A DNA stretch of 20,083 nt. It comes from a virus. Position numbers and translations under genes: made by a program. Positions within the stretch are counted from its first letter, which is position 1. Each line of letters opens with the position of its first letter. The DNA is taken from positions 1 to 20,083 of the IMG/VR virus record IMGVR_UViG_3300042905_001969; one strand, 5' to 3'. The notes below the pieces were generated by a model. It did no database searches and had not been told where the DNA came from. It worked only from the letters and a program-made list of their open reading frames with translations. Shown here one piece after another: positions 8,492 to 13,520 of this stretch.

Positions 8492-8749
8492 TTAAGCATT
8501 GTGACTTTCCCACCAGTCGGCCGCTTTCTGCATCGCGCTCAACAGGCCGCCATCGTGTTCGGTGCCTTTCATCCTAATCAGGTCGTGAATGATGTACTTC
8601 TGATGCTGGTCAAATCCAGTGTCGGTGTAGTGAACAGCAGGGATGTCGCCACTGTCATCGTCAAACCATTCGTGTGCGGAAAAGTACATTGGTACTTCGA
8701 AGCTACCTGCTTCGTCTTCAATTTCAAATACAAATTCAATGTCGTTCAT
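8492..8749 (-). CDS. acidic hypothetical protein, 85 aa
   Basis: An 85-residue strongly acidic protein (MNDIEFVFEIEDEAGSFEV..., later HEWFDDDSGDIPAV) with a helical C-terminus ending KAADWWESHNA. The acidity recalls DNA-mimic inhibitors, but many phage proteins are acidic and no family is recognised. The leader ACTAAACCCAACT directly precedes ATG 8749; the T-A-A within it is also the stop of the upstream small membrane gene, so the two genes are separated by eight bases. Confidence 0.7.
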   Translation of the reverse strand: MNDIEFVFEIEDEAGSFEVPMYFSAHEWFDDDSGDIPAVHYTDTGFDQHQKYIIHDLIRMKGTEHDGGLLSAMQKAADWWESHNA

Positions 8750-8757
8750 AGTTGGGT

Positions 8758-8895
8758 TTAGTTTAATATCGCTATAAAAATCTGCTTAATGAGGTAAATT
8801 AGCATCGCCTGTACAAGCAGCACGCCCAATGCAATTGTTGTATAAAGCACAAAAGTTGGTAATGCTTCAATTAAGTCTTTTAATTTATTTTTCAT
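8758..8895 (-). CDS. small single-span membrane protein, 45 aa
   Basis: A 45-residue frame that fills the gap between two larger genes. ATG 8895 overlaps the stop of the alanine-rich gene (ATGA) and the stop TAA at 8758-8760 begins the leader of the next gene. The product starts MKNKLKDLIEALPTFVLY and has one clear membrane helix from about residue 14 to 42, preceded by a basic, amphipathic N-terminus, so an inner-membrane protein with its N-terminus in the cytoplasm is expected. The start is preceded by ATAAACCCAACCCAACT. Role unknown. Confidence 0.68.
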   Translation of the reverse strand: MKNKLKDLIEALPTFVLYTTIALGVLLVQAMLIYLIKQIFIAILN

Positions 8896-9491
8896 AGTTG
8901 GGTTGGGTTTATAATTGAATTAACTTTTTGGATGATTAGGTCGCCGATGTATTGGCGGCAAATGTCAGCTGTTTGCAATCGATTTGCATCACGGGCAGCA
9001 GTATCGGCATCGGCATCGTAATAGGCATCGGCAGCGGCAGCGTAAATGGCATCGGCAGCAGTATCGGCAGCGTCAGCGTAAGTGGCATCGGCAGCGTAAT
9101 AGGCAGCGGCAGCGGCAGCGTAATAGGCAGCGGCACGGGCAGAGGCAGCGGCACGGGCAGAGGCAGCGGAATAGGCACGGGCAGAGGCAGCGGCATCGGC
9201 ACGGGCAGCATCTAACTCCTCACGTGTTGCCGTGCCTTCGCCAAAAGCAATCGCGGTGTCAACTGCTTTAAGGCTTCTACCGTCATTCATCAAGTGCCTA
9301 ACGGTGTTGGCGCAGTGCCCTTTTGCAAGGGTTAATGGTTGCAGTCCGATGTCGCATTTATATGCGAGCCACAGCAACCAATCGCCGCGGTGGCAGGTAG
9401 CAACAACCTCTTCGATTGTTTTACTTTCTGCCCACTCAATTGCGTTGGAGCAGGCGTTAACAATTTTTTTTAGATATTCTGTAAATGTCAT
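8892..9491 (-). CDS. alanine-rich repeat protein, copy 1 (putative immunity-like family)
   Basis: A 199-residue protein in two parts. Residues 1-93 form a globular helical domain with TCHRGDWLLWLAYKCDIG, then LTLAKGHCANTVRHLM, then AVDTAIAFGEGTATREEL. Residues 94-169 are more than half alanine with Tyr, Asp, Ser and Arg, a long predicted helix or coiled rod; the C-terminus (170-199) is again ordinary. This layout resembles proteins annotated as putative immunity proteins (Imm-5-like), a label I give only tentatively. The rod is encoded by a hexamer-like repeat (GCC NNT). A second copy lies at 11369-11887. The last codons (NPTQL) are the leader of the next gene. Start ATG 9491 follows TTTAACCCAATCCAATT. 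Confidence 0.82.
   Translation of the reverse strand: MTFTEYLKKIVNACSNAIEWAESKTIEEVVATCHRGDWLLWLAYKCDIGLQPLTLAKGHCANTVRHLMNDGRSLKAVDTAIAFGEGTATREELDAARADAAASARAYSAASARAAASARAAAYYAAAAAAYYAADATYADAADTAADAIYAAAADAYYDADADTAARDANRLQTADICRQYIGDLIIQKVNSIINPTQL
8992..9212. repeat. hexanucleotide-periodic coding repeat (GCC NNT)
   Basis: On the minus strand, alternate codons are almost all GCC and the codons between them mostly end in T (GCT, TCT, CGT, GAT, TAT), giving a six-base period over about 220 bp. Units such as GCCGCTGCCTCTGCCCGT recur. Changes in unit number keep the frame, so the alanine-rich rod can lengthen or shorten by slippage or unequal recombination; the second gene copy is shorter by 27 residues in total. 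Confidence 0.8.
9074..9279. repeat. 206-bp exact direct repeat, copy 1
   Basis: Identical base for base to 11473-11678, a displacement of 2399 bp in the same orientation. It covers part of the alanine-rich segment and the conserved codons just before it. Flanking parts of both genes are similar but carry many substitutions, so the identity ends sharply. This suggests recent gene conversion or recombination between two older duplicates, and would allow deletion of the genes between. Confidence 0.9.
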
Positions 9492-9503
9492 AATTGGATT
9501 GGG

Positions 9504-9755
9504 TTAAAGGTTATCGGTTTGTTTTATGCGATACGCTCTCGCAAACTTGCGACGAATGTGTTCGTCGTTCGAATAGTAGCCAGTTGGGTCGTTGCAGTCC
9601 AAGATTTGATACCAATCAATGTTGTTATCATCGCACTCCACTAATTTATCACCCGCCTCAAATGCTTCGTCCAAAGTGTCGTAGGTTCCTGCATAATCTT
9701 CCAGTCCGTGGCAACTGTCGTAGTTGTTGCCTGCGATTAGCAAAAATTTATTCAT
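9504..9755 (-). CDS. acidic hypothetical protein, 83 aa
   Basis: An 83-residue acidic protein (MNKFLLIAGNNYDSCHGLED...) with an N-terminal strand, a helix containing TLDEAFEAGDKLVE, and NNIDWYQILDCNDPTGYY, ending in a basic stretch. Short phage proteins of this strand-helix type are often called hypothetical. ATG 9755 is preferred to an upstream ATG at 9836 because the leader ATCTATACCCAACCGAACT lies directly before it and it overlaps the previous stop as ATGA. The final codons and the leader of the alanine-rich gene are adjacent. Confidence 0.7.
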   Translation of the reverse strand: MNKFLLIAGNNYDSCHGLEDYAGTYDTLDEAFEAGDKLVECDDNNIDWYQILDCNDPTGYYSNDEHIRRKFARAYRIKQTDNL

Positions 9756-9982
9756 AGTTCGGTTGGGTATAGATATGTTTCGTTGTAGTATAATTCTGCA
9801 TAAGTTGTCCGCATCTCTTTGATAGCAGTACTCCAAGTATCTCCATCTATTCGAGCATTAATAATTTGCATTTTCTCTTTTTCCATCAAAGATTTAATCT
9901 TTTCTTCAATAAGCAGTACTGCATCCAAGTCCATCGGCATTGTTGCCCTAACCCACTCTAACATTTCTTGCATAGCTGTCAT
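9752..9982 (-). CDS. hypothetical protein, 76 aa
   Basis: A 76-residue helical protein (MTAMQEMLEWVRATMPMDLD...) with a lysine/glutamate-rich central helix (IEEKIKSLMEKEKMQII). It begins in an ATGA junction with the upstream gene and ends in another with the downstream gene, so its start is well set even though a second Met follows at residue 4. No family recognised. Confidence 0.7.
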   Translation of the reverse strand: MTAMQEMLEWVRATMPMDLDAVLLIEEKIKSLMEKEKMQIINARIDGDTWSTAIKEMRTTYAELYYNETYLYPTEL

Positions 9983-10170
9983 ACTCCTGCCTCCTTCCTG
10001 ATTTGGCGGCTGTCAAGTTCCGCCAAGACCAGCCGCAGTTTATCTGCGGCTGAATCTCGAACGGTGTGGTTGATGGCGATGCGCATCACCAACTCGCAGT
10101 TGGCTTGCTCCACGTGAAGGTTGGCAAGGCTCAGCCCTGCCAACCAAACTTTATAGGCTAATGGTGTCAT
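9979..10170 (-). CDS. hypothetical protein, 63 aa
   Basis: A 63-residue all-helical protein (MTPLAYKVWLAGLSLANLHV...) with a basic end (RQIRKEAGV). Translationally coupled on both sides by ATGA overlaps, between the 145-residue protein of the recombination block and a small hypothetical. Function unknown. Confidence 0.68.
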   Translation of the reverse strand: MTPLAYKVWLAGLSLANLHVEQANCELVMRIAINHTVRDSAADKLRLVLAELDSRQIRKEAGV

Positions 10171-10604
10171 TTGAAGGTTACGGTTAAAGTGGTTTTATTG
10201 GGTTTCATCGGTAGCACTGGAACAATCTCGCCAGTGTCAGGGTCAACAATTACGGCCTTTCCATTCATCCTGAACGCCTGTTTCAGCAGTTCCTGACGCG
10301 CCTTCAATTGCACGGCGAGGTTGTTGCATACTTCATCCTGCGTGAAGTCGGGCATTCCGTTGCCTTCGCGTAGTACAACGTTAGCACCTTCGATGCTGAA
10401 CGCACCTTTGTAATGGTAAGCCTCGTCAATGGCTATGTCTTGCGTGTTGTCCAAGATGCCTTCCAGTGCCTTTATTAAGGCTTTACAGCGGACGTGTACG
10501 CTCAAAGGTGATATGTTGCCATCAAGCACTTGCGAGGTCACTGATTCGATAAATTCGCTTATGTCAGCCTTGCTGATGTTAGCGGGTAGTTGCAGGTTAG
10601 CCAT
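10167..10604 (-). CDS. hypothetical protein of recombination block, 145 aa
   Basis: A 145-residue protein. Residues 1-60 are helical (ISKADISEFIESVTSQVLDG...), followed by AYHYKGAFSIEGANVVLREG and a second helix pair (VCNNLAVQLKARQELLKQAF), with a short beta-rich C-terminus (KAVIVDPDTGEIVPVLPM). I recall similar proteins near single-strand annealing proteins in Bacteroidota phages, which fits its place two genes after the annealing protein, but I cannot name a function. It overlaps the upstream gene by 8 nt and the downstream gene by 4 nt. Confidence 0.72.
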   Translation of the reverse strand: MANLQLPANISKADISEFIESVTSQVLDGNISPLSVHVRCKALIKALEGILDNTQDIAIDEAYHYKGAFSIEGANVVLREGNGMPDFTQDEVCNNLAVQLKARQELLKQAFRMNGKAVIVDPDTGEIVPVLPMKPNKTTLTVTFK

Positions 10605-10872
10605 TGGTGTCTTGCAGGATTTGAAGTGAAGAACGGATGAGGGATTCGGCGCGTGACAAATTGCGCAGGGCCTTTGTCACGTGGGCCTGTGGAAGCTTCG
10701 GCGTTGAGTTGTACTTGTTGTTGTCTCGACCGAAAAGCAGGTATACGGATGATGCTCGCCACGCACAGCCGCGCTTGGTGGTGATGCCTGCTTTGTTGAG
10801 TTCCTCGGCCATCTGCCGCAGTGAAGTGCGGCGATGGGCAGGAAGGGTGTAGATAAATTCGATGGGTGTCAT
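10597..10872 (-). CDS. small protein resembling the 'recombinase' helix of serine recombinases
   Basis: A 91-residue basic protein. Residues 18-47 (LRQMAEELNKAGITTKRGCA, then WRASSVYLLF) match the pattern LNxxGIxTxRGxxWxxSSVxxIL that marks the DNA-binding 'recombinase' domain of large serine recombinases. No catalytic resolvase domain is present, and the gene is too short to hold one. It is probably a stand-alone DNA-binding protein, a regulator or a relic of a recombinase. It overlaps the upstream annealing protein gene as an ATGA junction. A weak leader (TTAAATCCAACAAAAA) precedes ATG 10872. Confidence 0.65.
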   Translation of the reverse strand: MTPIEFIYTLPAHRRTSLRQMAEELNKAGITTKRGCAWRASSVYLLFGRDNNKYNSTPKLPQAHVTKALRNLSRAESLIRSSLQILQDTNG

Positions 10873-11372
10873 TTTTTGTTGGATTTAAGTTGTGATTTAA
10901 CGTATTCAATGCCTTTGGAAAACTTGGCCGCATCCCAGTGTGGTTGCGGAAGTAACCGCGCCATCTCGGCAGGGTCTAACGCTTCGATCAGGATGCAGTA
11001 ATCGGTGCGCAGTTTCTCCAGTTCGTTCTCCTTCGCCAGCGCAAACTGCATCTCATCAGCGGTGGCGATGGCATCCTTCAATCCGATTCCGAAGTTGCCG
11101 AGCGCACGCCCCCACGCACTGCTCTCGCAGTTCTCCACGTAGGAAGTTTTGTTGATGTTTGAACTGGTGCGGTCTTCCTGTGCCAGTCCTGTCGCAACGA
11201 TGCGGCCAGTTGGGTCGGTGATGATAGCGTTCAGCACTACGAAGTCGGGTGTCAATTGCACCACTTCGGTAGTCAGGCAATGGTCGGCGAAGTTCTCGCG
11301 GAAATACTTGATTCTTTCCACGACTTCCACATAAGGCTTGCCCTTGATGTTGATTGTTTTTAGGTTGGTCAT
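10869..11372 (-). CDS. Rad52/ERF-like single-strand annealing protein
   Basis: A 167-residue protein of the phage annealing-protein group related to Rad52/DdrA and ERF. Residues 13-70 (YVEVVERIKYFRENFADHCL..., VVLNAIITDPTGRIVATG) form the beta-beta-alpha core, and SYVENCESSAWGRALGNFGI (77-96) is the strongly conserved segment of this family. After about residue 110 a charged helical tail follows. Such proteins anneal complementary strands during recombination-dependent replication and repair. The leader ACTAAACCCTTAAATCA precedes ATG 11372 and is shared, base for base, with the leader of the alanine-rich gene at 11887; it also encodes that gene's last residues. Confidence 0.8.
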   Translation of the reverse strand: MTNLKTINIKGKPYVEVVERIKYFRENFADHCLTTEVVQLTPDFVVLNAIITDPTGRIVATGLAQEDRTSSNINKTSYVENCESSAWGRALGNFGIGLKDAIATADEMQFALAKENELEKLRTDYCILIEALDPAEMARLLPQPHWDAAKFSKGIEYVKSQLKSNKK

Positions 11373-11887
11373 TGATTTAAGGGTTTAGTAATTGAATTAA
11401 CTTTTTGGATGATAAGGTCGCCAATGTACTTTCGGCAAATGTCAGCTGTTTGCAATCGATTTTCGATAGCGGCAGCGTAAGTGGCATCGGCAGCGTAATA
11501 GGCAGCGGCAGCGGCAGCGTAATAGGCAGCGGCACGGGCAGAGGCAGCGGCACGGGCAGAGGCAGCGGAATAGGCACGGGCAGAGGCAGCGGCATCGGCA
11601 CGGGCAGCATCTAACTCCTCACGTGTTGCCGTGCCTTCGCCAAAAGCAATCGCGGTGTCAACTGCTTTAAGGCTTCTATCGTCATCCATCAAGTGCCTAA
11701 CGGTGTTGGCGCAGTGCGCTTTTGCAAGTGTAAGCGGTTGCAGTCCAATATCGCATTTGGATGCGAGCCACAACAACCAATCGCCGCGGTGGCAGGTAGC
11801 GACAACCTCTTCGACTGTTTTACTTTCTGCCCACTCAATTGCGTTGGAGCAGGCGTTAATGGATTTTAAATATTCTGTAAATGTCAT
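11369..11887 (-). CDS. alanine-rich repeat protein, copy 2 (putative immunity-like family)
   Basis: A 172-residue paralogue of the protein at 8892-9491. The N-terminal domain aligns almost residue for residue (MTFTEYLKSINACSNAIEWA..., TCHRGDWLLWLASKCDIG, GEGTATREELDAARADAA). The alanine-rich rod is shorter by 26 residues, with one further residue lost near the N-terminus, and the C-terminal part (NRLQTADICRKYIGDLIIQK) is kept. A 206-bp core is identical in DNA to copy 1, whereas the rest differs by scattered substitutions. Keeping two copies so close together suggests either dosage or separate partners. The tentative immunity label is the same as for copy 1. ATGA junctions at both ends. Confidence 0.82.
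   Translation of the reverse strand: MTFTEYLKSINACSNAIEWAESKTVEEVVATCHRGDWLLWLASKCDIGLQPLTLAKAHCANTVRHLMDDDRSLKAVDTAIAFGEGTATREELDAARADAAASARAYSAASARAAASARAAAYYAAAAAAYYAADATYAAAIENRLQTADICRKYIGDLIIQKVNSITKPLNQ
11473..11678. repeat. 206-bp exact direct repeat, copy 2
   Basis: Second copy of the exact repeat at 9074-9279, same orientation. It lies in the matching part of the paralogous gene, including the shared hexamer-periodic segment. Confidence 0.9.
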
Positions 11888-12048
11888 TGATTTAAGGGTT
11901 TAGTTTGTGTTTGGTTGGCAGCGTAGTTTAACGCGGCGCGAATCGTGCCAAATCGCGCGCGGCATAAGTTGAGGGTGTCAGCCTCGCAGTAAACCGAAGT
12001 AAGTTGCATAAGGGGTTTAGTGGTTTTGGTTTTGGTTGTGTTTTTCAT
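11884..12048 (-). CDS. small hypothetical protein, 54 aa (or 41 aa)
   Basis: A short frame ending in an ATGA junction with the second alanine-rich gene. Two starts are possible. ATG 12048 follows ATAAACAAACACG and a -7 box at 12067-12074. ATG 12009 follows ACTAAACCCCTT, directly after the stop of the overlapping membrane gene. The N-terminal 13 residues (MKNTTKTKTTKPL) of the longer form are mostly leader-like codons, so the 41-residue form (MQLTSVYCEADTLNLC...) may be the true one. It is a Cys-containing helical protein with RARFGTIRAALNYAA, not a known family. The C-terminal codons (TKPLNQ) again are the next gene's leader. Confidence 0.58.
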   Translation of the reverse strand: MKNTTKTKTTKPLMQLTSVYCEADTLNLCRARFGTIRAALNYAANQTQTKPLNQ

Positions 12049-12384: not shown

Positions 12385-12395
12385 TGGTTTGGGGT

Positions 12396-12983
12396 TTAGA
12401 ATTTAATGATTGGTATTACAATGACTTGCAGTTCACCTTTGTCTTCGGTGTCGCTGTAATTCATAACGCAGGCGCGTTTATCGGTGCGGAAGTTCATAGT
12501 TATACTGCCACCTGCGAAAATCTGCATTGCATCTGATAGCCTCTTGGCATCAATGTGGAATTGGCCGTTGTTCAATTCGGTTGCCTGTGTTGGAATGATG
12601 CAGGCATAGTCAGGGTATCTATGCACATAATTGTAAGCTTCTGCATTCATATACAACATCGTGTCATACACGTCACCGTTTTTGTCGTGAAGCAATACTA
12701 CCATCGATTCTTTGTTGAAGGTTACATATTGGAGTTTGCTTTGGCACAGCTTTTTGAACTGAACATTGTGGATGTAAAATTCAGCGGGTAGGTCAGTCGT
12801 TTCGACATAAAAGTCCACAGGTGTCCACGCTAATACGTGCGCATCAGTGGCGGCCATATACAAACCTTCCCTGCCTTGGTTACCTGCTGGCAGTGTCTTG
12901 AACTGAATGTAGTTTAGGTTTTCGCGAATCTTGTCGTTTGAAGCGGCAAGGTGCAATTTGGGAAATGATGTGATTTGAATCAT
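12396..12983 (-). CDS. DNA polymerase sliding clamp-like protein (DnaN-like)
   Basis: A 195-residue protein with features of bacterial beta-clamp domains. ATDAHVLAW at residues 45-53 corresponds to the ATDGHRLA element of DnaN, and the C-terminal part (FHIDAKRLSDAMQIFAGGSI... ending GELQVIVIPI) matches the final clamp domain, including the hydrophobic strand near the C-terminus. At 195 residues it could hold fewer than three DnaN domains, so it would need to assemble as a larger oligomer, or be a divergent clamp. It would hold a polymerase on the phage template. Leader AAAACCCCAAACCA precedes ATG 12983. Confidence 0.62.
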   Translation of the reverse strand: MIQITSFPKLHLAASNDKIRENLNYIQFKTLPAGNQGREGLYMAATDAHVLAWTPVDFYVETTDLPAEFYIHNVQFKKLCQSKLQYVTFNKESMVVLLHDKNGDVYDTMLYMNAEAYNYVHRYPDYACIIPTQATELNNGQFHIDAKRLSDAMQIFAGGSITMNFRTDKRACVMNYSDTEDKGELQVIVIPIIKF

Positions 12984-13074
12984 TGGTTTGGGGTTTTAAT
13001 TGGTTTGGGATTAAGGTTGAATTTAGTTCTTGAAGTTTATCATAGATGATGATGAGGTCGGCGACCTTGTGCAT
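12880..13074 (-). CDS. doubtful overlapping frame, 64 aa
   Basis: The 12984-13158 gap has one frame of interest: ATG 13074, MHKVADLIIIYDKLQELNST, which looks like a real helix. But the frame then runs 104 nt into the clamp-like gene, through its leader element, and its remainder is rich in Arg, Ser, Asn and Gln. It may be a short gene whose true stop was lost by a frameshift, or a chance frame. The rest of the gap is AT-rich with no hairpin that I can support. Confidence 0.28.
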   Translation of the reverse strand: MHKVADLIIIYDKLQELNSTLIPNQLKPQTNDSNHIISQIAPCRFKRQDSRKPKLHSVQDTASR

Positions 13075-13158
13075 AGTGATGGAGTTAAATAAAAAGCCTT
13101 GCTGACCGTTTCCAATTGAATTTTTGTGAAGGGAAAACAAAAAAAAGCCACCAAACTT

Positions 13159-13404
13159 TTAAATATCAAGAACATCAAATATAGCATCCTCTATATCTTT
13201 AACAATGTGCATTGATTCTGGGTATCGCAACACAGTTTTAGATTCAATTATGTTAGTCAATCTCTGTCTAAAATTTTCACTTTTAAAAGCATCTTTAATG
13301 TTTTGTTCCTTTTCCACAACTTCAGAAACAGCATTTTCTAGTGACTTCTTTTCAGCATGATGATATTGTTCATTAGCCCATTTTTGCAATTCAGTTGTTA
13401 TCAT
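13159..13404 (-). CDS. hypothetical helical protein, 81 aa
   Basis: An 81-residue helical, charged protein (MITTELQKWANEQYHHAEKK..., then VSEVVEKEQNIKDAFKSENF) ending VKDIEDAIFDVLDI; a short coiled coil is likely. Its DNA is AT-richer than neighbours and its leader (AACAGAATAAAAA) lacks the usual TAAACCC element, so it may be a separate acquisition. No family recognised. Confidence 0.65.
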   Translation of the reverse strand: MITTELQKWANEQYHHAEKKSLENAVSEVVEKEQNIKDAFKSENFRQRLTNIIESKTVLRYPESMHIVKDIEDAIFDVLDI

Positions 13405-13438
13405 TTTTTATTCTGTTTAATGTTATGTTAAAATATTC

Positions 13439-13507
13439 TTAATCTTTTTTAATGCTTATAAAGTTTCTGGCGGCAGTTAAAAACATTTCTTTTGTGTATA
13501 GTTTCAT
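13439..13507 (-). CDS. very small peptide, 22 aa
   Basis: A 22-codon frame, MKLYTKEMFLTAARNFISIK plus two residues, that starts directly after the leader ACTAAACCAAACCAACCT; the first TAA of this leader is the stop of the gene before. The leader element is the main evidence for translation. The peptide is basic and amphipathic. It could be a leader peptide or a degraded gene. Nothing else is visible in 13405-13438. Confidence 0.42.
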   Translation of the reverse strand: MKLYTKEMFLTAARNFISIKKD

Positions 13508-13520
13508 AGGTTGGTTTGGT

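Follow-up and report, generated by a model that had tools for sequence, protein, structure and literature searches.

Two related alanine-rich genes, here called copy A and copy B, share an identical core of 206 bp in a metagenomic virus contig of 20,083 bases (IMG/VR record IMGVR_UViG_3300042905_001969). The window, meaning the whole stretch of DNA that was analysed, is the entire virus record. Copy A (8892..9491) encodes 199 amino acids (aa) and copy B (11369..11887) encodes 172 aa. Both are open reading frames (ORFs) on the minus strand, as are the leaders, arrays and neighbouring genes whose coordinates are written below with two dots, and both stand where a first-pass annotation of this DNA had placed two alanine-rich genes. 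They belong to one family, with 54 aligned members and conserved CHRGDWLLWL and ADICR motifs. Between them lie six ORFs (9504-9755, 9752-9982, 9979-10170, 10167-10604, 10597-10872 and 10869-11372), where the annotation had counted seven genes. The ORF that adjoins B (10869..11372, 167 aa) encodes a putative RAD52-like single-strand annealing protein. A short G-free sequence, referred to as the leader, stands directly before many start codons in the window, including those of A, B and the RAD52-like gene. The primase of the window has its closest counterparts in Nonlabens phages P12024 and Cellulophaga phage phi46:1 (40 to 42% identity), which makes a host among the Bacteroidota likely for this phage.

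The shared core and the alleles around it

Global alignment of A and B yields 519 aligned columns with 37 differences, all of which fall outside a single identical run of 206 nucleotides (nt), located at 9074..9279 in A and 11473..11678 in B. This exact block spans the end of the N-terminal domain together with 124 nt of the alanine array, and the next longest exact blocks between the copies are 44, 31, 30 and 27 bp. Copy A carries 78 nt of extra alanine array directly beside the shared block. When 37 differences were placed at random, a run of 206 nt was reached in 0 of 200,000 placements, with a maximum of 174. The picture drawn in the annotation, of scattered differences around 206 bp that lack a single change and include the repeat part, is thus accurate in each respect.

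The relationship of A and B to their relatives changes along the gene. Over the 5′ 209 nt, A is nearest to L008_6545 (96.2%) and B to L079_3762 (94.7%), while A and B are 90.9% identical to each other. Over the 82 non-repeat nucleotides of the core, A and B are identical, differing by 3.7 to 7.3% from the seven nearest relatives (as chosen by the 5′ part); no relative listed comes closer to them than 3.7% (best 96.3%). Since the core differs between relatives, slower evolution of this part is unsupported, and the core is not simply more conserved than the rest of the gene. Over the 3′ 78 nt, B equals the copy in the corresponding slot of contig L004 (78/78), and A is nearest to L008_6001 (76/78). 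On these comparisons, A and B are alike in the middle and carry different alleles at both ends, and it seems that the alleles in the two slots already differed when the core came to be shared.

Because the 3′ end of B is the L004 allele and differs from A at 8 sites, the pair probably did not arise by simple local duplication. If one gene had recently undergone a tandem-type duplication and the copies had since changed faster outside the core, both would be of one family, and L008 indeed has two closely similar adjoining copies. We nevertheless regard such an origin as very improbable, given the different nearest relatives of the two 3′ ends and a core that differs between relatives with no sign of slower evolution. 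Recent conversion or recombination is the best reading of the shared core, with conversion likely, and the patch would then have been copied recently between two slots of this genome.

A third phage could also have donated the core to A and to B independently, without any transfer between the slots. Exchange between phages is pervasive, and a recombination test was positive both for the alanine family and for a control gene. However, this explanation needs two events from one donor, and in other viral contigs a 39-nt piece of the core array has no exact match and a 56-nt piece has one, so that a common donor seems distinctly unlikely.

The identity could, finally, be a product of assembly, in which two slightly different copies were merged into one consensus inside the repeat, and this would count against any copied patch. 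The record is a metagenomic contig, an exact repeat of 206 bp exceeds the usual assembler k-mer, and a handful of differences could have been merged. However, the flanks retain all 37 differences, A retains its extra array beside the core, and the independent contigs L011, L012 and L096 show the same patchwork, with 77 to 82% identity to A and B in the 5′ part and 95 to 96% in the core. We consider a merged consensus unlikely.

Leaders, empty sites and homology breaks

The leader, with a consensus of about TAAACCCAACCCAACTATG, commonly overlaps the end of the gene before it. By a simple definition drawn up on the window, leaders stand before 16 of the 361 ATGs on the coding strand and before none of the 294 on the opposite strand. 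Leaders are carried by 38 of 62 genes of the alanine family, and 39 of 57 complete family genes end in ATGA, the stop overlapping the next start. Around A and B, leaders are found before B (11883..11904), before the RAD52-like gene (11368..11389), before A (9492..9509), before a small 45-aa gene at 8758..8895 (leader at 8896..8914, overlapping the 3′ end of A, where stop and start share ATGA) and before the gene 8492-8749 (leader at 8750..8768). A leader and start codon at about 13507 are followed by no gene of at least 35 aa, and L072, L073 and L004 lack the region 12390-13516.

Relatives without B show what its insertion consists of. Near relatives were taken as distinct sequences with a RAD52-like protein at 94% or more, the window excluded. 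In 13 of these 14 the B slot is empty, and the gene upstream of B (11884..12048) runs directly into the RAD52-like gene through a single leader; the remaining one (L004) has an alanine gene in the slot. The raw count is 14 empty and 2 filled, with L075 and L155 being one contig and the window among the filled. Across all distinct contigs compared, the slot is empty in 34 (33 without the L075/L155 double) and filled in 4, one of which (L007) holds a distant paralogue. The unit missing from relatives is B plus one leader, and the ends of B form a 22-bp direct repeat that takes in the leader together with the gene's first bases, with one arm before B and the other before the RAD52-like gene. Relative to its near relatives, B is therefore a clean insertion.

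A similar joint is found for A. In L075, the gene before A is joined by one 21-nt leader to the gene that follows 8758-8895, and both A and this small gene are missing; the leaders before A and before 8492-8749 are accordingly the near and far joints of an A cassette. A 9504-type sequence directly before an 8749-type gene also occurs in L069, L079, L096 and L101. For both modules, the same short sequence stands at both ends of the part that is present or absent (the 22-bp repeat for B and the 21-nt joint in L075 for A). A and B thus have the appearance of units that can be removed, with a short sequence at their borders that is repeated before many genes. The annotation had further expected recombination between the copies to delete or amplify the block between them. 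Among the contigs listed, none has this block deleted or multiplied, and in none of them is the gene upstream of B followed by an alanine gene and then directly by the genes that come after A, which is weak evidence given that several contigs, L008 included, end inside the region.

Leaders also mark the positions where homology between contigs breaks off. When the window was compared with 18 related contigs, 14 of 37 distinct break positions fell in leader zones, which make up 3.2% of the sequence, and other gene starts held 4 (p 0.07). In an all-against-all comparison of 23 contigs, 168 of 454 breaks were at leaders (18 expected) and 54 at other gene starts (23 expected); counted by start, breaks were present at 132 of 187 leader starts and at 46 of 287 others. 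Of the simple insertion junctions, 75 of 118 hold a leader, with a median overlap of 19 nt. A second G-free stretch, before 10872 (gene 10597-10872), recurs at insertion junctions in other contigs; it is without the AACC core and was missed by the leader definition. The suggestion in the annotation that shared leader elements had helped the duplication proved to be its stronger part, supported by the 22-bp repeat, the A joint in L075 and the accumulation of breaks at leaders.

Leaders could instead serve translation only, as its signals in a host group that works without Shine-Dalgarno pairing, with random joining of genes and survival, under selection, of those joints that keep a leader. Their position right before start codons on the coding strand is in favour of this, as is the general lack of Shine-Dalgarno pairing in Bacteroidota described in passages of PMC10783764. 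However, when short genes that lie close behind a neighbour are compared, breaks are present at 112 of 152 leader starts and at far fewer of the leaderless starts (40 of 190). In addition, the 22-bp leader of the gene downstream of B recurs exactly on both sides of the B insertion, an arrangement that would result from pairing of like leaders. A role in translation alone therefore strikes us as somewhat unlikely, while deserving serious consideration. In Nonlabens P12024L (6/654 versus 9/406 ATGs) and Cellulophaga phi46:1 (2/426 versus 4/268), the leader is not concentrated on one strand, which shows that phages of this kind do not all share the feature.

A putative annealing protein beside a variable gene family

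The protein encoded at 10869..11372 matched only PHROG families of unknown function (phrog_11717), and a comparison of 22 members of its family with Pfam gave no sensible match at E values up to 1. Its predicted structure (mean predicted local distance difference test score, pLDDT, 78.9; predicted template modelling score, pTM, 0.51) is nearest in fold to human RAD52 (Z 7.4, root-mean-square deviation (rmsd) 2.8 over 92 residues), and also matches Mgm101 (Z 6.7) and Sak of phage 80alpha (Z 6.1 and 5.8). An unrelated Hsp70 chain (Z 7.0) matches its C-terminal helices. The name "annealing protein" used in the annotation has no informative family match behind it, and from the closest folds of its predicted structure we treat the protein as a candidate RAD52-like single-strand annealing protein. 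According to a part of PMC3945230, the minimal pairing length is 31-34 bp for RecA and 23-27 bp for Red-beta, and the 22-bp leader repeat is close to the latter. Two neighbouring genes gave weak matches: 10597-10872 (91 aa), beside the RAD52-like gene, to the Recombinase domain PF07508 (E 0.00085, below the cut-off), and 10167..10604 to phrog_2205 (E 0.0034), making it a possible Mu Gam-like end-protection protein. Elsewhere in the window, the 609-968 protein may resemble phage RyR-type domain proteins.

In members of the alanine-rich family, a conserved N-terminal domain that contains CHRGDWLLWL is followed by an alanine-rich stretch, whose length varies, and by the motif ADICRKYIG at the C-terminal end. 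Structure prediction gives an all-helical protein that is well determined at both ends, but not in the array. Copy number varies, with two adjoining copies in L008, L079 and L033. L057 and L058 are one viral contig of 70,939 bases, which carries at least seven paralogues of the family in tandem groups.

The arrays are built in units of six bases, with 75 codons in A (8982..9206), where third bases alternate between T and C, and 49 in B (11459..11605). In 31 of 53 members, the alternation of T and C at the third position is at the floor of a shuffle test, and codon positions 1 and 2 vary while the third is nearly fixed. Alanine codons in the A and B arrays are only GCC and GCT, apart from one GCA (27 GCC, 14 GCT and 1 GCA in A), whereas ten other genes of the window use all four (GCG 88, GCA 86, GCC 50, GCT 46). 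Plain codon usage was rejected on this basis as the cause of the array in this phage; it could explain the arrays of L052 to L059, which are nearly all GCT or all GCC. The pattern fits growth in six-base steps, and the array may give similar copies an even substrate for pairing. A diversity-generating retroelement was rejected by reading only, as the array is nearly all alanine and the window has no third copy; no search for a reverse transcriptase was made.

The function of these genes was approached through family and structure searches. Pfam, PHROGs and NCBIfam assigned no function to the alanine-rich proteins, A and B matching only phrog_18326 (unknown function), and weakly. Foldseek returned nothing under E 0.001 for B against the PDB and BFVD, a profile of the 54 members matched no solved chain, and tblastn with B matched no record in a phage collection. 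A scan of a genome collection gave 7 loci, mostly distant. The best match in a second structural search was 7jtu_B (Z 6.7, rmsd 4.4, 126 residues, 9% identity; next Z 4.6). The 7jtu entry is the deaminase toxin SsdA in complex with its all-helical immunity protein SsdAI, as described in part of PMC7901873, and from its length and helical match we take chain B to be SsdAI. A viral Imm-5-like protein was rank 4 in a structure search of viral proteins. The profile of Imm5_like (PF21805) was matched by 1 of 54 members (L063; E 5.7e-4; 20.2 bits, under the profile's cut-off of 25), and by neither A nor B. An immunity-like role for the alanine genes is therefore a lead only.

Proposed cassette exchange and its closest known counterparts

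Given that the sequence itself shows the identical patch, the unoccupied sites, a leader repeated at either end and the clustering of breaks at leaders, we think it probable that cassettes are exchanged at leaders by annealing and that a patch was copied between A and B. Genes of the recombination and accessory region would travel in this phage group as cassettes of one or two genes, with the short G-free leader as the joint. The RAD52-like protein encoded beside the copies may pair leaders, such that a gene enters or leaves between two of them and its neighbours remain undamaged. A and B would be two cassettes of one family, each inserted at a site of this kind. With both present in the same genome, the similarity between them, especially in the six-base array, could then provide a second substrate, and at least 206 bp would have been copied as a patch from one copy to the other. 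Annealing as the mechanism, the 10869-11372 protein as its agent, and copying within this genome rather than acquisition twice from one donor are the parts of this account that we infer.

Several results weigh against this interpretation. In the 5′ tree, A groups with L008_6545 (support 90/91), but a tree in which A and B are sisters in this part was not rejected by the approximately unbiased (AU) test (p-AU 0.142); the core has too few sites for its tree to say more. Of the gene conversion claimed in the annotation, the patchwork and the recent sharing of the core are supported, by the 206-bp run and the segment distances; under the segment-wise check that it proposed, the nearest relatives by distance differ between segments, and the two copies may still be sisters in the 5′ part. 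The control gene that was positive in the recombination test is 10869-11372, and because of this result mosaicism is general in these phages and not special to the alanine genes. A GENECONV-like test was uninformative for A and B: all 20 pairs printed had the lowest attainable value, p = 0.0005, and did not include A/B because the array was left out and most pairs look recombinant. The leader definition is simple and was made on the window itself, and since the contigs are related, the 454 breaks are not independent events. BLAST matches end where similarity ends, and a leader kept for expression could collect match ends from chance joining and selection. The likeness to RAD52, at Z 7.4, is below the level that the tool calls safe.

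It has long been asked how phages can exchange single genes and leave the neighbours intact, and both illegitimate joining followed by selection and pairing of short conserved sequences have been proposed. This phage group offers a testable case, with many empty and filled sites, one recurring joint and an adjacent candidate annealing protein. Should the leader start translation as well, a single sequence would account both for the continued expression of cassettes and for their movement. In a broader and tentative extension, which we hold to be rather doubtful, the leader would be a general plug-in joint, at once a translation start signal in hosts without Shine-Dalgarno pairing and a pairing site for the RAD52-like protein. 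The alanine genes would be its most mobile cargo, diversified by recombination along the array, with third bases kept as a homology scaffold while residues vary, perhaps tracking toxins or defences. If this were true, any leader-bearing gene could be plugged in or out between its neighbours.

A literature search, mostly at the level of search results, found no account of leader-bounded cassette exchange in such phages, and the closest known systems each share some of its elements. Immunity proteins of the Imm5_like type (PF21805) resemble the alanine-rich proteins through the weak match of the distant member L063, the rank of the viral Imm-5-like protein and 7jtu_B as best solved match. In contrast to these, the window copies have no PF21805 match, and the identity and Z score of 7jtu_B are within what chance similarity between helical proteins can give. 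In phage or bacterial paralogues, gene conversion likewise leaves an unchanged patch inside two diverged copies, but here the copies double as movable cassettes and a six-base array forms part of the patch. In the relaxed recombination by Rad52-like phage recombinases, as treated in part of PMC3945230, a RAD52-like protein (here predicted) is also found beside a mosaic region. The putative protein of the window, however, belongs to phrog_11717, a family without assigned function, and the joints are short repeated leaders and not long diverged genes. The boundary or linker sequences of lambdoid phages (reference 9 in PMC2327257, as represented there) are similar in that related phages exchange modules at short conserved intergenic sequences. 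Compared with these linkers, the joint described here is one recurring leader, placed directly before start codons and serving single genes, in a phage group with a Bacteroidota-type primase and without Shine-Dalgarno-like leaders.

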